From Prevotella sp. UBA3294 (GTDB taxonomy: Bacteria; Bacteroidota; Bacteroidia; Bacteroidales; Bacteroidaceae): a stretch of 36,696 nt of DNA. Of this stretch, positions 4,271-22,316 are shown piece after piece. The stretch covers positions 2,481 to 39,176 of the forward strand of contig DETG01000011.1 in assembly GCA_002361535.1 (NCBI GenBank), read 5' to 3'. Every line of letters starts with the position of its first letter. Position 1 is the stretch's first letter. The notes under the pieces were generated by a model. It made no database searches. It saw nothing but the letters and a program-made list of their open reading frames with translations, and was not told where the DNA came from. A program made the translations under genes and the position numbers.

Positions 4271-5386
4271 TCAGGTATTCTTCCTATAACTGAAAACGGC
4301 CCAAGTGCCCATGAGAAGAGAGAATACCACAAGAGCCAACACTTGATGGAAGACACTGCTGAAGCCTCCGCCACGTACAAACACAGTGCGCACCCCATCA
4401 ATGAAATAGTGCATGGGATTGATGTATGTAGTGGCATACGACCAGTCGGGCATGGATCGGGTTGGGGTGAAGAGTCCGCTGAGCAACATCAGACAAACTA
4501 CGAAGAACCACATCACGAACATTGCCTGTTGCAAGGTGTTACTGTAGTTGCTGATCAGCAAGCCAAACGAGGAGAAGAACAGTGCCAACAACATAGCCAG
4601 CAGATAGACCAGCCATAGCGGACCTTGGCAGGTGATGCCATAGACGCCCCACGCCAGCAACAGACAGACCGTGACTATGAAGAGTCCGATAAGCCAATAG
4701 GGAATGAGTTTAGCCAGGATAAACGCCCACTTCGACACCGGTGTGACATTTATCTGTTCTATCGTACCCGTCTCCTTCTCACCCACAATATTCAGGGCGG
4801 GAAGGAATCCGCACATCAGCATCATGACAATGGCCAAAAGGGCGGGGATCATAAACACCTTATAGTTCAAGTGCTTGTTATAGAGATAAAGAACAGTTCC
4901 TGCCACAGCCCCACCCTGTCGGAAAGGGAGTGAGTTACTGACAATCTGAGCCAAATAGCTACTGCCGATACCTCCTTTAGTACCATTCACGGCATTGGCA
5001 GCGATCAGGATCTTCCCATCCGTTCCCCCAGAAGGAAGAGGTTGACCTTTTGCCACCATTTCTACCGTCTTTCCATAATTCTGCGGGATGACCATGACAA
5101 TATCTGTACGGCTCTTCTCTATTTCCTTCAAAGCCACCTCATAAGTTGGCTGCAGTCCACGGAAGAGGAAATAATGACTCTGCTTCATGTCGTTGATCAA
5201 TTGCCGGCTCACAGTGGAGTGATCGTTATCAACCACGCTGACTCGTATATTCTTCACCTCCTGATTCATGACCCATGGCATCACACACATGATCATGATA
5301 GGGAATATGAAGATGAGTTTGGGCAGGAACGGGTTGCGGCGAATCTGCAGGAACTCCTTTTGGATCAGATATTTTATTGTTTTCAT
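4271..5386 (-). CDS. ABC-2 type efflux permease (YbhR/YbhS-like), distal gene
   Basis: A 371-residue ABC-2 permease. An N-terminal cytoplasmic amphipathic stretch and first membrane helix (about 22-42) precede a large extracytoplasmic loop (about 45-175). Five more hydrophobic helices follow to the C-terminus, with the family signature 'NIVGEKETGTIEQINVTPV' between helices 2 and 3. It pairs with the neighbouring permease to form the membrane part of a YbhGFSR-type exporter of drugs or other amphiphiles. It is the last gene of the five-gene operon starting at 10375. The 85-base gap to the upstream permease is filled by an octamer repeat array. Confidence 0.92.
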   Translation of the reverse strand: MKTIKYLIQKEFLQIRRNPFLPKLIFIFPIMIMCVMPWVMNQEVKNIRVSVVDNDHSTVSRQLINDMKQSHYFLFRGLQPTYEVALKEIEKSRTDIVMVIPQNYGKTVEMVAKGQPLPSGGTDGKILIAANAVNGTKGGIGSSYLAQIVSNSLPFRQGGAVAGTVLYLYNKHLNYKVFMIPALLAIVMMLMCGFLPALNIVGEKETGTIEQINVTPVSKWAFILAKLIPYWLIGLFIVTVCLLLAWGVYGITCQGPLWLVYLLAMLLALFFSSFGLLISNYSNTLQQAMFVMWFFVVCLMLLSGLFTPTRSMPDWSYATTYINPMHYFIDGVRTVFVRGGGFSSVFHQVLALVVFSLLMGTWAVFSYRKNT

Positions 5387-14733: not shown

Positions 14734-15430
14734 GCCGCTAAGGTAGTCATTTTTGCGTTACGGCAATCCCTTTTCCCACTCTTATTTGGCATTTTTCCAC
14801 TTATTTCACCTCAGTTAACCACTTTCCTTGAAATATTGAATCAAAAGAAGAATCACAGCATAGTTTCCCATGATGATATTGGATCTGTTCTTTTCCTGGA
14901 AGAACCCAACAATCAGCACAATCAGTTTGTCAAGAAAAAGTGCTAAAATTTAACACTTCTTTTTCGGGCAATTGAGAGAAGAAAGGAACGAAGAATTGGG
15001 GGGGATTGGGGTGTTTTTGAATATTGGAACAACGAAAACGGTGTTTCGTTAAGGTAAGAACGGTCTTTTTGAGTGATAAGAATACTGTTTTCGGTCACTC
15101 AAAATAGTGTTTTTGAAGCGTAAATAGACTCTTTTTGCCACCCAAACAGAGTCTAATTGCACTCAAAACAGACTTTATTTGCGTCACAATTAGACTTTAC
15201 TTTCAGGAAGAAAAGCGCACTGTTTCACAACGTCCTCATTATCAAGCATTTGCAAAAATGCCAAAAACAGGGCTTCTTTGCGACCAAAGTATCAGTTGAT
15301 GGCAATCGAGCAAATCTGGAGAGGTGGTTTGTCAAAATAAATCATCTATTTTAACATTTCCACATTTCATGGGGTTACATGATTACATCCTCTTATCTGG
15401 GACGTTCTTTGTATAGCTAATCCATTGCTT
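14734..15430. other. Long AT-rich intergenic region
   Basis: About 700 bases without a convincing gene; the reading frames present have no coding character. It contains an imperfect palindrome (14934-14965, GAAAAAGTG against CACTTcTTTTTC) that could be a bidirectional terminator or an operator. It also contains the 22-nt tandem array at 15040-15215. The remaining 200 bases before the pectinase show nothing recognisable apart from a weak promoter-like CTTTG just before 15416. Confidence 0.6.
15040..15215. repeat. 22-nt tandem array, 8 diverged units in strict phase
   Basis: Eight contiguous 22-base units start at 15040, 15062, 15084, 15106, 15128, 15150, 15172 and 15194. Within units, columns 3 and 5 are T and columns 18 and 21 are A in all eight; column 10 is G in six. 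A typical unit begins ActcTTTTTG and ends CAAAacAG, with a short variable middle, giving an imperfect TTG...CAA dyad. No unit is identical to another, but no indels break the phase. Confidence 0.8.
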
Positions 15431-16947
15431 ATGACAACGAAAAAAATCCTCTTCACGTTCTGTATGGTCATGGTTTCCTCCATTGCCGTGGCACAACAAT
15501 TGGCAGGACATCGCGACTATAGTTATACTTCCCGGGAATGGAAACAAATAGCGAGGAGCTACCCAGATGACTTCTTCAAGACTCCCGAGGCACGGAGAAT
15601 CGCTGAGAATGTGTTAATCTACCAACGCAATACCGGCGGATGGCCCAAGAACCTGCCGATCCATCGTGAACTGGGAGAGGAAAAAGAGATCGTCCTTGCA
15701 GACAAAAAGAAGCGCAACGACTCCACCACCGACAATGATGCAACGATTACGGAGATGACCTACTTGGCCCGACTCTACAATGTCCTGTCGACAGAGAACA
15801 AGTCATCCGACAAAACTGACATAAAAAGATATAAAGAGGCATTCCTGAAAGGTCTTGAGTTTATGCTCAGCGGACAATACAAGAACGGGGGATGGCCCCA
15901 GTTCTGGCCTGAGAACCGCGGCTATCAGGTACATATCACCTATAACGACAATGCCATGGTACAGACCATGCAGGTGATCCGTGACCTCCGCGACGGGAAG
16001 GAACCCTTTGGGAACCTCGTAGATGCCAAGATGAGGAAACGGCTGGCTTCGGCCTTTGACAAAGGTATTGAATGTATCCTGAAAACACAGATCGTGGTCA
16101 ACGGCAAGCCCACCGTGTGGTGCCAACAGCACGATCATATCACCTTGAAGCCTGCCCCCGCACGTTCCTTCGAACTGGCTTCCTACTGCTCTTCCGAGAG
16201 TGCTGCCTTGGTAAGACTCCTCATGGAGGTTCCCCACCCCAGCAAGCGCATCAAGGATGCTGTGAATGGGGCGATGGAATGGTTCGAAGCACATAAGATC
16301 ATGGGGATCCGCGTGGAAAGCTATCGTGACGAGAACGGCAGATACGACCGCAGGGTTGTGAATGACCCGCAGGCGGGTCCGATATGGGCACGCTACTATG
16401 ATTTCGAGAAAGAGCAGCCTTTCTTCTGCGACCGCGACGGTGTTCCACGGAAGACATTAAGCGAGATCGGCTACGAACGTAGGAACGGTTATGGATGGTA
16501 CAGCGATGCTCCCGCCCGTCTCTATCGTCAATATGCCCGATGGAAATCAGTCAACAACACCCAAGGGAAGCAATATGATGCCGTGGTGAACAGCGGGGAA
16601 CGGATACAAACGGCCATCGAGGCAGCACCCGACAACTCCCCCACCCCTTATGTGATCTTCATCAAGAATGGTATCTACCGTGAAAAGGTGATCATCGACA
16701 AGCCGACGACTGCATCATCTCCAACCTCACCGTATATAATAACTATGGTAGTTACGGTGGAAGAGATATGTTCAATGTGCACCGCAAGGGCGGCGACTAC
16801 AGTTGGATGAGAAACAACCTCCAGGAGTCAAAACAGAAACCCCGACCGGAAAATATCAATGCTTTGTGGACTTTCGGCGGGAAATGGGATCCGGAGGCAA
16901 AGATCGACGCATTGTGGAATATACTCGCATATCCAGAGGGTAAATAG
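15431..16947 (+). pseudogene. PL10 pectate lyase fused to a truncated CE8 pectin methylesterase, frameshifted
   Basis: The open part (to 16810) has a signal peptide (MTTKKILFTFCMVMVSSIAVAQ) and a complete family 10 polysaccharide lyase domain, about residues 20-370. Hallmarks are NTGGWPKN, NGGWPQFWPE, YNDNAMVQTMQ, WCQQHD and YSSES-like CSSESAALVRLL; this domain cleaves polygalacturonate. After residue 375 a CE8 pectinesterase begins (YDAVVNSGERIQTAIEAAP, PYVIFIKNGIYREKV, IIDKP) but stops after about 45 residues. From about 16703 the sensible reading continues in another frame as DDCIISNLTVYNNYGSYGG and then INALWTFGGKWDPE, ending at 16947. So an internal deletion joined two gene parts out of frame. 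The lyase may still work; the esterase cannot. Confidence 0.8.
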
Positions 16948-17008: not shown

Positions 17009-17039
17009 TTGTTCGTTTCAATTATTTGTTATAAATTTG
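17009..17039 (+). promoter_or_regulatory. Promoter of the aromatic amino acid operon leader
   Basis: TAAATTTG (17032-17039) with TTGT (17009-17012) exactly 19 bases upstream. It lies just before the leader peptide (ATG at 17068), giving a transcript that starts about 20 bases ahead of the leader. Confidence 0.65.
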
Positions 17040-17067
17040 CACCCGAATCAATAAAAATGATATTAAA

Positions 17068-17142
17068 ATGAAGCAATTCGCATCTTTCTATTACTTTTAT
17101 TTTTACTTTGCAGGGAACTGTGAAGCGGAAAGCCGTATGTGA
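17068..17142 (+). CDS. Phe/Tyr-rich leader peptide of the aromatic operon
   Basis: A 24-residue frame whose residues 4-14 read FASFYYFYFYF: five Phe and four Tyr codons in eleven. It ends ...NCEAESRM at a TGA. Its codons 18-21 overlap the first arm of the antiterminator (17119-17129). A ribosome waiting for Phe-tRNA or Tyr-tRNA in the run would leave that arm free, while one that reaches the stop at 17140-17142 would cover it. This is the arrangement of leader peptides such as those of pheA and trp in enterobacteria. No homology is claimed. Confidence 0.85.
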   Translation: MKQFASFYYFYFYFAGNCEAESRM

Positions 17143-17194
17143 AAGATTGAAAATTTGAATAATCAGAAAAAATGAATCAAGGCTCCGCTTCACA
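17119..17194 (+). promoter_or_regulatory. Antiterminator pairing of the attenuator
   Basis: TGTGAAGCGGA (17119-17129) is perfectly complementary to TCCGCTTCACA (17184-17194): 11 pairs, no mismatch. The second arm is also the left arm of the terminator at 17183-17221, so the two structures exclude each other. Confidence 0.85.
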
Positions 17195-17221
17195 AGCAAA
17201 GTGAAAGCGGAGTTTCTTTTT
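17183..17221 (+). terminator. Intrinsic terminator of the attenuator
   Basis: Stem CTCCGCTTCAC (17183-17193) with GTGAAAGCGGAG (17201-17212) has one bulged A and a 7-base loop, followed directly by the T-tract TTTCTTTTT (17213-17221). It lies 16 bases before the pheA start. Confidence 0.9.
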
Positions 17222-17236
17222 AGAAGCATTTAAGAT

Positions 17237-18067
17237 ATGAAGAGAATAGCCATACAAGGGTTGAGCGGATCGTTCCACGACATTGCAGCCCATCAGTATT
17301 TCCCTAATGAGCAGGTTCAGCTGATCTGCTGCTCCACTTTCGAACAGGTGTTCGAGAACCTGAAAAGTGACCCTACGGCCATCGGTATGCTGGCTATCGA
17401 GAACACCATTGCAGGAAGCTTGCTGCACAACTACGAGCTGCTGCGTGACTCAGGTACGACGGTGGTGGGTGAGCACAAGCTGCATATCAGCCATTGCATC
17501 TGCTGCCTGCCCGAAGACGACTGGGACACCATCACAGAGGTGCATTCCCATCCTGTGGCCCTGATGCAGTGCCGCCAGTTCCTCAGCAATCATCCCACCT
17601 TCAAGAATGTGGAGGCAGAAGATACGGCAGGCAGTGCGAAGATGATTGCCGAGGGGAACCACAAGGGATGGGCAGCCATCTGTCATGCTGATGCCGCCAG
17701 ACTCTACGGACTGAAAGTCTTAGAGGATCACATCGAGGACAACAAACACAACTTCACACGTTTCCTTGTCGTGTCGAACCCAAACAAGGCAGATATGCTC
17801 CGCCCGCTCACCGAAGCCAACAAATCGAGCATTGTTTTCTCTTTACCTCATGAGGAGGGATCGCTGAGTCATGTATTGGCCATCCTCTCTTTCTATAAGA
17901 TCAACCTCACAAAGATCCAATCCTTACCAATCATCGGTCGTGAATGGGAATACCTGTTCTATGTGGATGTCATGTACAACGATCTCACCCGCTACCGACA
18001 GTCAGTGGATGCCATCATCCCACTGACAAGGGATCTGAAGATATTAGGAGAGTACAAGGGAAGTTAA
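17237..18067 (+). CDS. pheA: Prephenate dehydratase
   Basis: 276-residue monofunctional enzyme that decarboxylates and dehydrates prephenate to phenylpyruvate in Phe synthesis. The periplasmic-binding-protein-like catalytic halves cover about residues 1-185. They begin IAIQGLSGSFHDIAA (compare the family's GPxGTFS/HxAA), include the IENTIAGS motif, and end with the catalytic NFTRFLVVS (TRF) motif. A C-terminal ACT domain (195-275, PHEEGSLSHVLAILSFYKIN) should bind Phe for feedback inhibition; its usual ESRP is IQSLP. First structural gene after the attenuator. No chorismate mutase domain is present; that activity is on the DAHP synthase two genes downstream. Confidence 0.96.
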   Translation: MKRIAIQGLSGSFHDIAAHQYFPNEQVQLICCSTFEQVFENLKSDPTAIGMLAIENTIAGSLLHNYELLRDSGTTVVGEHKLHISHCICCLPEDDWDTITEVHSHPVALMQCRQFLSNHPTFKNVEAEDTAGSAKMIAEGNHKGWAAICHADAARLYGLKVLEDHIEDNKHNFTRFLVVSNPNKADMLRPLTEANKSSIVFSLPHEEGSLSHVLAILSFYKINLTKIQSLPIIGREWEYLFYVDVMYNDLTRYRQSVDAIIPLTRDLKILGEYKGS

Positions 18068-18108: not shown

Positions 18109-19269
18109 ATGATAGAGCCAGCAAAGAGATTAGGATTAGTGAGTGAATACTATTTCAGTAGGAAACTGAAAGAGGTGGCACAGATGAATGCGGAAGGCAA
18201 GGATATTATCAGTCTGGCCATCGGCAGTCCTGACATGCCACCATCGCAACAGACCATCGACAAGCTCTGTGAAGTGGCTAACGACCCTGCCGCCCACGGC
18301 TATCAGCCTACGATGGGAACAACAGAGCTAAGGAATGCCATGGCAGACTTCTACCGTCGCTGGTATAACGTGGAACTGAATCCCCAGAGCGAGATCCAGC
18401 CCCTGATAGGAAGCAAAGAGGGTATCCTGCATGTCACACTCGCCTTCGTGAACCCTGGCGAGCAGGTATTGGTGCCGAATCCCGGATACCCCACCTATAC
18501 CTCACTGAGTAAGATCCTCGGTGCAGAGATCGTGAACTATGACCTGCTGGAAGACAACGGGTGGCAGCCCGACTTCGAAAGTTTAGAGAAGATGGATCTC
18601 AGTAAGGTCAAGCTGATGTGGACGAACTATCCCAACATGCCTACGGGTGGTGCTGCGAGGATGGAGACATACGAACGATTGGTGGCGTTTGCCAAAAAGC
18701 ACGACATCGTGGTAGTGAACGACAACCCCTACTCTTTCATCCTCAATGAGAAGCCGTTATCGCTGCTGCAGGTGCCTGGAGCAAAAGACTGCTGTATAGA
18801 GTTCAACTCGATGAGTAAGAGTCATAACATGCCAGGATGGCGTGTGGGAATGTTAGCATCGAATGCCCAGTTCGTGCAGTGGATCCTGAAGATCAAGAGT
18901 AACATCGACAGTGGTACGTTCCGAGGTATCCAGTTAGCAGCTGCCGAGGCTTACCACAACTCAGAACAATGGCACCGTGAGGCGAATATCGAGACCTACC
19001 GCCGCCGCCGTAAGTATGCCGAACAGATCATGGATGTGCTGGGATGTAAGTACGATCCGAACCAGGTGGGTATGTTCCTCTGGGGAAAGATTCCCGAGAA
19101 ATATGATGACGTGGAAGAACTGACCGAACGAGTGCTGCACGAGGCGCGGGTGTTCATCACCCCCGGCTTCATCTTCGGTAGCAACGGCAAACGCTATATC
19201 CGCATCTCGTTGTGTGCAAAAGAAGAAAAAATCAGATTAGCATTAGAAAGAATCAAAAAAACAATATAA
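18109..19269 (+). CDS. Class I/II PLP aminotransferase (probable aromatic aminotransferase)
   Basis: 386-residue fold-type I aminotransferase. It shows the N-terminal YYFSRKLKEVAQMN and SLAIGSPDMPPSQ substrate loop, the YQPTMGTTELRNAMADFY region, NPGYPTYTS and the PLP Lys in SMSKSHNMPGWRVG (near residue 235). Near the C-terminus it has GSNGKRYIRISLC with the carboxylate-binding Arg. In this operon it should transaminate phenylpyruvate and 4-hydroxyphenylpyruvate to Phe and Tyr; it could also serve aspartate or alanine. It ends one base before the DAHP synthase start (TAAG-ATG), so translation is coupled. Confidence 0.92.
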   Translation: MIEPAKRLGLVSEYYFSRKLKEVAQMNAEGKDIISLAIGSPDMPPSQQTIDKLCEVANDPAAHGYQPTMGTTELRNAMADFYRRWYNVELNPQSEIQPLIGSKEGILHVTLAFVNPGEQVLVPNPGYPTYTSLSKILGAEIVNYDLLEDNGWQPDFESLEKMDLSKVKLMWTNYPNMPTGGAARMETYERLVAFAKKHDIVVVNDNPYSFILNEKPLSLLQVPGAKDCCIEFNSMSKSHNMPGWRVGMLASNAQFVQWILKIKSNIDSGTFRGIQLAAAEAYHNSEQWHREANIETYRRRRKYAEQIMDVLGCKYDPNQVGMFLWGKIPEKYDDVEELTERVLHEARVFITPGFIFGSNGKRYIRISLCAKEEKIRLALERIKKTI

Positions 19270-19270
19270 G

Positions 19271-20335
19271 ATGGAATTAGAATTAAAACCACTAAGATTA
19301 CCGAGTGACAATGAGCGCCCCTTCGTCATTGCAGGCCCCTGTTCTGCAGAGACAGAAGAACAAGTGATGACCACAGCCCGCCAGTTAGCAATGAAAGGCT
19401 GTCATAATTTCCGTGCCGGAGTATGGAAGCCACGTACCAAACCAGGTGGATTTGAAGGAAACGGAGAGGCTGCCCTTCCCTGGATGCGCCAAGTGAAGGA
19501 GGAAACAGGTATGCTCGTCACCACCGAGGTGGCCACCCCCGAGCATGTGGAGCTGTGCCTGAAATATGGCATCGACATCTTGTGGATCGGAGCCAGGACG
19601 AGTGCAAACCCCTTTGCCATGCAAGCCATCGCCGACTCCCTGAAGGGTGTTGACATCCCTGTGTTCGTGAAGAACCCTGTCAATCCCGATCTGGAACTGT
19701 GGATTGGTGCCTTGGAGCGCATCAACCAAGCAGGTATCAAGAAATTAGGTGCTATCCATCGCGGTTTCTCTTCCTACGACAAGAAGATCTATCGGAACAT
19801 GCCGATGTGGCAGATCCCCATCGAACTGCGCCGTCGTATTCCCGACCTGCCCATCATCTGCGATCCCAGTCATATCGGCGGACGCCGCGAACTCATTGCT
19901 CCTCTCTGCCAGCAGGCCATGGACTTGGGCTTCGACGGTCTGATCGTTGAGAGCCATTGTGATCCTGACAAGGCATGGAGCGATGCAAAGCAGCAGGTGA
20001 CACCTGACGTTCTCGACTACATCCTCAGTCTGCTCGTCATCCGCGACGAGAAAATCACTACCGAGGGAATCAGTCAGTTACGTAAGCAGATAGATGAACT
20101 TGACAACGACCTGATGGAACTTCTTGCCAAGCGCATGCGTGTCTGCCGCGAAATTGGCCAATACAAGAAAGAACATAACATGACGGTGCTACAGCCCACA
20201 CGCTACAATGAGATCCTGAACAAGCGAGGAGCACAAGGAGCGCTCTGTGGCATGGACGATGAATTCGTGAAAGTGGTGTTCGAAGCCGTTCACCAAGAGA
20301 GTGTCCGTCAGCAAATGGAAATCATCAACAAATAA
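19271..20335 (+). CDS. Bifunctional 3-deoxy-7-phosphoheptulonate synthase/chorismate mutase
   Basis: 354 residues. Residues 1-260 are a type I-beta (KDOPS-like) DAHP synthase, which condenses PEP and erythrose-4-phosphate. Visible motifs are FVIAGPCSAET, the substrate loop FRAGVWKPRTKPGGFEG, ILWIGART, VKNPVNPD, and the metal-binding CDPSHIGGRRELIAPL and IVESHCDPDKAWSD. A type II chorismate mutase domain (about 268-350) is fused at the C-terminus: ISQLRKQIDELDNDLMELLA, then RMRVCREIGQYKKEHNMTV. The fusion supplies prephenate to PheA and TyrA and often makes the synthase sensitive to prephenate or chorismate. Confidence 0.96.
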   Translation: MELELKPLRLPSDNERPFVIAGPCSAETEEQVMTTARQLAMKGCHNFRAGVWKPRTKPGGFEGNGEAALPWMRQVKEETGMLVTTEVATPEHVELCLKYGIDILWIGARTSANPFAMQAIADSLKGVDIPVFVKNPVNPDLELWIGALERINQAGIKKLGAIHRGFSSYDKKIYRNMPMWQIPIELRRRIPDLPIICDPSHIGGRRELIAPLCQQAMDLGFDGLIVESHCDPDKAWSDAKQQVTPDVLDYILSLLVIRDEKITTEGISQLRKQIDELDNDLMELLAKRMRVCREIGQYKKEHNMTVLQPTRYNEILNKRGAQGALCGMDDEFVKVVFEAVHQESVRQQMEIINK

Positions 20336-20351
20336 TAAATCCTAACTTAAA

Positions 20352-21440
20352 ATGAAACAGATTCTGATTACCGCCGCCTTACTCTGCTGTGCCATGATAG
20401 CACAGGCTCAGAGAATTCAAGTAACCGACAAAGATGGAATGGGCATTGCACTGGCCAGTGTCACTGATGCCAACGGTGTGCTCATCGGAATCACCGACAT
20501 GCACGGCGTGCTGCCAGACATCAAGGGAGCGCGCACCGTGGCCATCAGCCATGTGGCCTATAAGGCCAAAAGGGTAAACGTTGACAGCCTCACCGACGGG
20601 CGCGTCACGATGGACGACAACGACTTCTCGCTCAACGAGCTCGTCATCAAGCCCAAGCCCCTTATCTACTCCGAACTCTACTATCGTTTCTATGCCTACG
20701 TTGACGACTCTCTGCGCACCTTCGTGGCCGGAATCGTGCCCTACGCATGGGACGTGCAGAAGAAGAAAGAGAGCGTGAAGTTTTCCGACTATGCCACCGC
20801 TGTATTCAACCTCAAGGACGTTTCTTGGTGGAAAGTGAGAGCCGAGGACATGGCCAAGGGTGCCATCCGAACGAAACCCGGCGAAGAGTGTCTCACCGAC
20901 GGCACATGGGAGAAGAGGTATTACATTAACAAGGAGGCCGACGGCGAGAACTGCTGGAAGATTGTCAATCCACGCGAGACCGTCGGTAAGCTCGTTCATG
21001 CCAACGGCCTGAGCACCATTACCATCGATGGTGCCAAAGCACAGATGTATGCTAACGAACGCAACGGCCAGGACAAACTGCTTAAGAGACGGCAGGACAA
21101 GAATTACGCCTACCAGTATGTAGAAGTGTTCAGGATTAACGACGAAGGGCAGGTGGGCAGAGAAGACTACGTCATGTCGCTCAACCACTGGGAGCACGAA
21201 GGCAGCAAAGGCCACGAGACCTACATCGTGGAGGCCTGGGTAACCGACCGTGGCTACATGACCGACGAAGAGTTCAAGCAAAAACGTAAGGACATCAATG
21301 CCCTGAGTAGCACACAGAACATGTGGCACATGCCGCTCAACGAGCTGGAGACATACGAGCGTCAGCACAACATCCCCGCCATCAGCGACGAGGCACGCAA
21401 GGCCATTGCCCTGATAACGAGAGAACGATGGACGAGATGA
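20352..21440 (+). CDS. Secreted protein with carboxypeptidase-regulatory-like N-terminal domain
   Basis: 362 residues with a clear signal peptide (MKQILITAALLCCAMIAQAQ). Residues 21-100 resemble the CarboxypepD_reg-like/'DUF4480-type' beta domain found at the start of many Bacteroidetes envelope proteins (VTDKDGMGIALASVTDANG, VAISHVAYKAKRV, FSLNELVIKPK). The remainder is Lys/Glu-rich and unrecognised, with aromatic stretches such as YSELYYRFYAYVDDS. It sits 16 bases after the DAHP synthase stop and before tyrA, so it should be co-transcribed with aromatic synthesis genes although nothing in it points to that pathway. Its C-rich codon use is slightly stronger than its neighbours', compatible with a later insertion. 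Confidence 0.8.
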   Translation: MKQILITAALLCCAMIAQAQRIQVTDKDGMGIALASVTDANGVLIGITDMHGVLPDIKGARTVAISHVAYKAKRVNVDSLTDGRVTMDDNDFSLNELVIKPKPLIYSELYYRFYAYVDDSLRTFVAGIVPYAWDVQKKKESVKFSDYATAVFNLKDVSWWKVRAEDMAKGAIRTKPGEECLTDGTWEKRYYINKEADGENCWKIVNPRETVGKLVHANGLSTITIDGAKAQMYANERNGQDKLLKRRQDKNYAYQYVEVFRINDEGQVGREDYVMSLNHWEHEGSKGHETYIVEAWVTDRGYMTDEEFKQKRKDINALSSTQNMWHMPLNELETYERQHNIPAISDEARKAIALITRERWTR

Positions 21441-21518: not shown

Positions 21519-22316
21519 ATGAAAATATTAGTACTTGGAGCAGGTAAGATGGGAAGTTTCTTCCTCGACCTGCTGAGTTTCGACCATGAAGTGGCAGTCT
21601 ATGAGAGAGACCCGAAGCGTATGCGCTTCACCTATAACTGTCAGCGCTTCACACAACTGGAAGAGATCAAGGCATTCCAGCCCGAGCTCACCATCAATGC
21701 CGTGACCCTAAAATATACCATTCCCGTATTTGAACAGGTGATCCCTTACCTGCCTAAGGAGTGCATCATCAGCGACATCGCCAGTGTGAAGACCGACTTA
21801 AAGGAGTATTACGAGAGCACAGGGATGCGCTATGTCTCCACACACCCGATGTTCGGTCCTACCTTTGCCAACCTCCAGCAGCTGAGTGAAGAGAATGCCA
21901 TTATCATCAGCGAAGGTGACTACATGGGACGTATCTTCTTCAAAGACCTGTATCAGAAGTTAGGACTGAACATCTACGAATATACGTTCGAGGAGCACGA
22001 CAAGACCGTTGCCTACTCCCTGTCCATTCCTTTTGTATCCACCTTTGTCTTCGCCGCCGTGATGAAACACCAGGATGCACCGGGCACGACGTTCAAACGT
22101 CACATGAAGATTGCCAAGGGGGTGCTCAACGAAGATGACTATCTGCTACAGGAAATCCTCTTCAACCCCTACACCAGCGGTCAGGTTTCCCAAATCCGCA
22201 CAGAACTGAAGGAGTTGTTAGAGGTCATCGACAACAAAGATGCTGAAGGCATGAAAGCCTATCTCACCAAGATACGCAATAACGTAAAACGCGATATCCT
22301 TATAGAAAAACCATGA
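21519..22316 (+). CDS. tyrA: Prephenate dehydrogenase
   Basis: 265 residues; oxidises and decarboxylates prephenate to 4-hydroxyphenylpyruvate (Tyr branch). The N-terminal Rossmann fold shows VLGAGKMGSFF and acidic YERD after beta-2, suggesting NAD+. SDIASVKTD and the catalytic-site STHPMFGPTFA follow, then an all-helical dimerisation domain with HDKTVAYSLSIPF. No chorismate mutase or ACT domain. It is the fourth pathway gene of the operon, after the unrelated secreted protein. Its stop overlaps the next start by 4 bases (ATGA). Confidence 0.95.
   Translation: MKILVLGAGKMGSFFLDLLSFDHEVAVYERDPKRMRFTYNCQRFTQLEEIKAFQPELTINAVTLKYTIPVFEQVIPYLPKECIISDIASVKTDLKEYYESTGMRYVSTHPMFGPTFANLQQLSEENAIIISEGDYMGRIFFKDLYQKLGLNIYEYTFEEHDKTVAYSLSIPFVSTFVFAAVMKHQDAPGTTFKRHMKIAKGVLNEDDYLLQEILFNPYTSGQVSQIRTELKELLEVIDNKDAEGMKAYLTKIRNNVKRDILIEKP

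Follow-up and report, generated by a model that had tools for sequence, protein, structure and literature searches.

A candidate dual phenylalanine/tyrosine leader-peptide attenuator ahead of the pheA operon in Prevotella and its relatives in the class Bacteroidia

Ribosome-mediated attenuation in its classical form is best known from Proteobacteria. The enterobacterial pheA leader (pheL; Rfam Phe_leader) senses Phe only and controls pheA, the tyrosine genes answering to TyrR. In Bacteroidia, ribosomes start largely without Shine-Dalgarno pairing. Among the RNAs of Bacteroidetes, Bacteroid-trp (RF01692) is presumably a Trp leader attenuator located ahead of Trp genes. It is listed as a probable cis-regulatory RNA of Bacteroidetes in Table 1 of Weinberg 2010 (PMC2864571), and RNA-level control of amino-acid genes thus has a precedent in these bacteria. 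The same table contains a Leu/phe leader (RF01743), which is likewise named for two amino acids but belongs to Lactococcus lactis and concerns Leu and Phe, as well as a 'pheA' motif from Actinobacteria; a Phe/Tyr leader in Bacteroidetes is not described in the available parts of that paper. According to the available part of an article by Naville and Gautheret (2010; PMC2965389), leader-peptide systems had, to the authors' knowledge, previously been shown only in Proteobacteria and Actinobacteria; the authors reported their own finding of such a system in Firmicutes. A transcriptome paper on B. thetaiotaomicron (PMC7366714) mentions sORFs reminiscent of leader peptides, and the term pheA is absent from its main text. 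An earlier report of the pheA leader element described here was not found in the literature searched, subscription papers and supplements aside.

Here, we describe a pheA leader of Prevotella sp. UBA3294 that is very probably a three-stem ribosome-mediated transcription attenuator with a dual sensor for Phe and Tyr, controlling pheA together with the genes for an aminotransferase, a DAHP synthase-chorismate mutase, and TyrA. It lies in a stretch of 36,696 nucleotides of contig DETG01000011.1 (the window), and its features are compiled in Table 1. Similarly to pheL, it consists of a short Phe-rich ORF and alternative antiterminator and terminator structures ahead of pheA; it differs from pheL in carrying Phe and Tyr codons and in preceding an operon that unites pheA, tyrA, and the DAHP synthase gene. 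The mechanism is of a known kind, and the variant is the probable dual Phe/Tyr sensing of a combined operon, found class-wide in Bacteroidia. As in known attenuators, the upstream ORF is rich in codons for the end products, and the downstream genes make the same amino acids. Pfam agrees with the earlier note on all four enzymes. Of the 80 close loci, 58 extended far enough in the 3' direction to show the order of these genes, which was the same in 57 of them.

Table 1. Positions of the attenuator parts and operon genes, numbered from the first base of the window
Feature	Position	Strand	Details
Bacteroidetes-type promoter-like site	17009-17039	+	TTG 17009-17011, 20-nt spacer, TAAATTTG 17032-17039
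Leader peptide ORF	17068-17142	+	24 codons; ATG 17068; stop TGA 17140-17142; translation MKQFASFYYFYFYFAGNCEAESRM
Stem 1:2 (anti-antiterminator)	17106-17125	+	17106-17113 pairs with 17118-17125; GGAA loop
Region 2, antiterminator 5' arm	17119-17134	+	17119-17129 plus GCC 17132-17134; within the leader ORF, ending ahead of its stop
Intrinsic terminator	17180-17221	+	17180-17193 with 17201-17215, one bulged A; T-tract 17213-17221
Region 3	17181-17194	+	Antiterminator 3' arm 17184-17194, also terminator 5' arm; GGC 17181-17183 pairs with GCC
pheA, prephenate dehydratase	17237-18067	+	PF00800; ATG 17237
Class I/II aminotransferase	18109-19269	+	PF00155
DAHP synthase-chorismate mutase fusion	19271-20335	+	PF00793 and PF01817
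tyrA, prephenate dehydrogenase	21519-22316	+	PF02153

Two observations concern the neighborhood of these features. Between the DAHP synthase-chorismate mutase gene and tyrA lies a gene for a 362-aa protein (20352-21440) without a Pfam match; tblastn at E 1e-20 detected it in none of the 58 close loci with enough sequence, and it therefore seems to have entered the operon recently. Upstream, at 15425-16945, is a pectate lyase gene whose ORF continues as far as the first part of a weak match to pectinesterase; by eye, this ORF seems broken near 16700, with the downstream sequence going on in another frame.

The leader ORF has nine Phe/Tyr codons within codons 4 to 14 (17077-17109), and both the promoter and this 24-codon leader match their earlier description base for base. 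The promoter-like site follows what we take to be the Bacteroidetes consensus (TTG / TAnnTTTG), and TTG-N(17-22)-TAnnTTTG occurs a single time on the + strand of the whole window, at 17009. Of 80 close Prevotella loci, two were too short upstream (less than 150 nt); each of the other 78 carries a Phe/Tyr-dense leader. For wider sets, we scored an ORF with six F/Y in 12 codons as a leader. Leaders preceded pheA in 88 of 92 genus loci (90 of the 97 matches of one search plus 2 added from another), in 56 of 60 order loci (60 of the 67 non-window matches plus 1 added; L216, with 15 nt upstream, was dropped), and in 37 of 44 more distant loci, here called class+ (the 44 best-scoring loci outside the order), comprising 34 of 41 from the same class and 3 of 3 from other classes. 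Thus, 181 of 196 real upstream regions passed the test, compared with 38 of 980 shuffled ones (3.9%); the 15 pheA loci without a leader over the threshold were 4 genus, 4 order, and 7 class+ loci. A TAnnTTTG element lay no more than 85 nt from the leader start in 82 of 87 genus, 41 of 52 order, and 14 of 36 class+ loci (5, 5, and 2, respectively, in one shuffle of each set). The earlier note held a mixed Phe and Tyr sensor to be unusual in Bacteroidetes, which this distribution contradicts: judged by leader composition, the putative mixed sensor is the norm in class Bacteroidia and no oddity.

In other classes of the same phylum, 8 of 11 genomes were without an aromatic leader even at a laxer threshold of four in 12. 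The remaining three (G515, G608, and G628; loci L286, L288, and L290) possess the most Bacteroidia-like PheA proteins of the other-class genomes, and therefore pheA and the attenuator may possibly have been acquired together by horizontal transfer. Within the genus, 11 of 56 near-complete genomes had no PheA match, which suggests Phe auxotrophy or a replaced enzyme.

The 11-bp antiterminator, the overlapping terminator, the T-tract, and the pheA start after it were all re-found where the earlier note had correctly placed them, and every part that it named stands. It had overlooked stem 1:2, which completes the classical three-stem attenuator layout. In antiterminator 2:3, TGTGAAGCGGA (17119-17129) is fully complementary to TCCGCTTCACA (17184-17194) over 11 pairs, and this structure and terminator 3:4 with its T-tract are mutually exclusive, as in an attenuator. 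The 5' arm of stem 1:2 runs from the third base of the final Tyr codon through the final Phe codon and slightly beyond; it pairs with the start of the antiterminator arm. The overlap of 1:2 with the control codons is apparent in the genus alignment and less clear by folding, the 1:2 fold exceeding 95% of arm-1 shuffles in 30 of 74 genus, 13 of 52 order, and 20 of 37 class+ loci. Folding energies were -18.8 kcal/mol for the terminator (17176-17222; z -5.0; 0 of 200 shuffles as stable) and -23.8 for the antiterminator segment (17110-17200; z -3.2; 1 of 200 shuffles as stable). When 17086-17222 was folded as a whole, the antiterminator was favored over the terminator, and default termination would thus require co-transcriptional folding or a ribosome.

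Covariation was analyzed in an alignment (A1) of the 74 distinct genus sequences for which our terminator finder script had a result; among all leader-bearing loci, the script found no terminator in 18 of 181. Stem 1:2 was paired in 99.8% of cells and had 29 double-change cells versus a shuffle mean of 8.5; column pair 28/34, for example, held AU 44 times, GC 24 times, UA twice, and UG and CG once each in the 74 rows, with one row unpaired and one gap. Terminator 3:4 had 69 double-change cells versus a shuffled mean of 26.3, and was unexceptional for the number of pairs with double changes (71 of 500 shuffles) and for pair types (199 of 500). In antiterminator 2:3, 88.2% of cells were paired and most pairs were near-invariant, with 12 double-change cells versus 4.3 in shuffles; its covariation score within the genus was modest, being reached by 16 of 500 shuffles and exceeded by a control slid by -2 (0.124 versus 0.091). 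The check for covarying stems and conserved codons among relatives, which had been proposed along with the attenuator, had a positive outcome, less strongly so for the antiterminator in the genus alignment. Stronger support for 2:3 comes from comparison between distant species. The own duplex averaged -15.7 kcal/mol in 52 order loci, versus -10.5 with other species' arms and -7.1 with shuffled ones, and -14.6 versus -9.7 and -6.7 in 37 class+ loci; in 43 of the 52 order loci and 29 of the 37 class+ loci, none of 20 shuffles was as stable. Part of the genus has an extra small hairpin after region 2, inside the antiterminator loop (A1 columns 47-69; AAGTTG..CAACTT, elsewhere CGTTG..CAACG), which apparently covaries.

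The arrangement of the arms relative to the codons fits a translating ribosome. Region 2 starts about 11 to 13 nt past the last aromatic codon and would lie directly ahead of a ribosome stalled there; a spacing of 8 to 18 nt was found in 72 of 74 genus, 47 of 52 order, and 33 of 37 class+ loci, compared with 65 of 370, 58 of 260, and 54 of 185 when the searched stretch was shuffled. If a ribosome is taken to cover -15 to +13, one at the stop codon overlaps region 2 in 161 of 163 loci, the stop codon being placed for masking of region 2 by the terminating ribosome. Stalling on the last aromatic codon would accordingly leave the ribosome touching region 2 or slightly upstream of it, and a finishing ribosome would cover part or all of region 2. 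We infer ribosome stalling, dependence on tRNA charging, termination in vivo, and an untranslated default. With ample supplies of both charged tRNAs, the first ribosome on the leader would reach the stop codon (17140) and cover much of region 2, leaving region 3 free for the terminator to form. When tRNA-Phe or tRNA-Tyr is poorly charged, this ribosome would stall within 17077-17109, its leading edge reaching no farther than the start of region 2; antiterminator 2:3 would form and RNA polymerase would read through, so that the leader would respond to a shortage of either amino acid (an OR response). In an untranslated leader, 1:2 could capture region 2 as it is made, and termination would be the default. 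The operon would in this way respond to charged tRNA-Phe and tRNA-Tyr.

The possibility that the short ORF encodes a functional small protein, the hairpins being an ordinary terminator plus chance pairing, has to be considered in view of the NCEAGSC-type C-terminal tail, which is strongly conserved in the genus. This tail, however, is the in-frame reading of the region-2 RNA arm, and beyond the genus tail, length, and sequence vary while aromatic density, arm pairing, and spacing stay. NCBIfam gave no match for seven leaders, and we regard a small protein as highly improbable.

The structured nature of the region might also point to a metabolite riboswitch or a T-box for Phe/Tyr with an incidental ORF. 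Against this, Rfam yielded no match at gathering score in the whole window, Phe_leader included; at E up to 10, the 11 matches near the leader were all below gathering score, the best being RF03161 (29.3 versus 46.5 bits). Neither Bacteroid-trp nor the Leu/phe leader matched at the Prevotella leader, and by eye A1 shows no conserved aptamer-like core beyond the attenuator arms; we therefore give a riboswitch or T-box even less credence than a small protein. A covariance model of the leader (R1), trained on a set that included 18 of the 19 pheA-bearing genus genomes below (only G012 was outside), matched at E < 1e-12 adjoining pheA in 19 of 19 of these, and gave no match at E < 0.1 in the 5 of the 24 genus genomes that lack pheA. 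Among 40 genomes, 20 had one site each with an R1 match at E < 1e-6, always adjoining pheA, and all remaining matches had E >= 0.01; across the window, it scored well at 17086-17220 only. Six pheA-bearing order genomes (G123, G125-G128, and G130) gave no match or only E > 0.01. The model reaches little beyond the genus and therefore says nothing on distant regulon targets.

TAY and TTY codons are one base apart, and the attenuator might sense tRNA-Phe only, with Tyr codons as neutral substitutes for Phe codons: F and Y are freely exchanged among relatives, and random TWY codons would yield mixtures anyway. We consider this unlikely given how leader codons vary with the genes behind them. At lone-pheA loci, the 12 credible leaders are Phe runs, e.g., MTRFFTHFFFFFTQQ, MRRNSFRFFFFFAFFFC.., and MITINNSFFFFFFRSDPEKGL, eight of them having no Tyr codon and four having a single one. 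Where an aminotransferase, DAHP synthase-chorismate mutase, or TyrA gene follows, 132 of 133 leaders have at least two Tyr codons (187 of 188 with the fresh loci below). The sole exception, L249, which favors sensing of Phe alone, has TyrA in its operon yet one Tyr versus eight Phe codons. The contrast (Mann-Whitney 1.6e-8; Fisher 3e-10; L217 included and relatedness ignored) left out 62 loci with less than 600 nt downstream and three duplicates (L335, L351, and L362); class+ loci were viewed with 1.5 kb downstream, and 'operon' there mostly means that an aminotransferase or DAHP synthase gene comes next. No leader over the threshold was found in 9 of the operon loci in the contrast and in 11 lone-pheA loci, one of which, L359, has a sub-threshold Phe-only leader. 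L217 was initially a thirteenth lone-pheA leader and was rejected as a spurious ORF inside the upstream gene.

A forecast was recorded before 60 fresh loci were retrieved. Among the 57 operon loci of this set, 55 carried a mixed leader, in each case with at least two Tyr codons, and two (L410 and L438) had no leader; the three lone-pheA loci had no leader over the threshold, L420 containing a sub-threshold FFFYF, so that the Phe-only half of the forecast gained no new case. In a FastTree phylogeny of 140 PheA proteins, there are four changes of operon state among leader-bearing loci; the three well-supported independent pairs showed the predicted direction or equality, never the opposite (sign test p = 0.25, three pairs being too few to reach 0.05). 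With just about four independent operon changes, a point in favor of Phe-only sensing, and with 8 of the 12 lone-pheA leaders from one family (f35; two from f25 and one each from f15 and f89), the dependence of codon content on operon content is suggestive. Genomes with a split pathway speak for dual sensing. G143, G246, and G217 have an aminotransferase/DAHP synthase/tyrA operon and G133 has a weakly matching tyrA followed by a DAHP synthase gene, each with its own mixed leader, identified as an ORF only; pheA has a Phe-only leader in G143 and G133 and none in G246 and G217. Such natural splits amount to a built-in experiment on whether codon content sets specificity.

At the level of sequence, the case for a dual-sensing attenuator draws on the anatomy of the leader and its conservation, on the covariation and placement of the stems, and on a codon content that follows the genes of the operon, the sensor codons apparently being kept in step with the operon's products. 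On balance, we lean toward one ancient aromatic attenuator of Bacteroidia with codons matched to the downstream end products, that is, Phe only for lone pheA, Phe and Tyr with DAHP synthase-chorismate mutase or tyrA, and perhaps Trp as a minor third input. Trp occurs in 40 of 188 operon leaders, or 40 of 2,256 codons of the 12-codon windows (1.8%), and in the first set it makes up 1.28% when leaders are counted in full. If this reading is true, the amino acids sensed by an operon would be predictable from leader composition, and classical attenuation, with a dual-input sensor, would be a general way of controlling aromatic amino acids in a class that is prominent both in the gut and in the environment. 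At locus L369 (G208; 4749-4933 in operon orientation), two successive aromatic-rich short ORFs, MMTTYTFSYFYYWFRTP and MVNFEFYYGFYYYLD, lie ahead of an aminotransferase/DAHP synthase operon and are possibly tandem attenuators.
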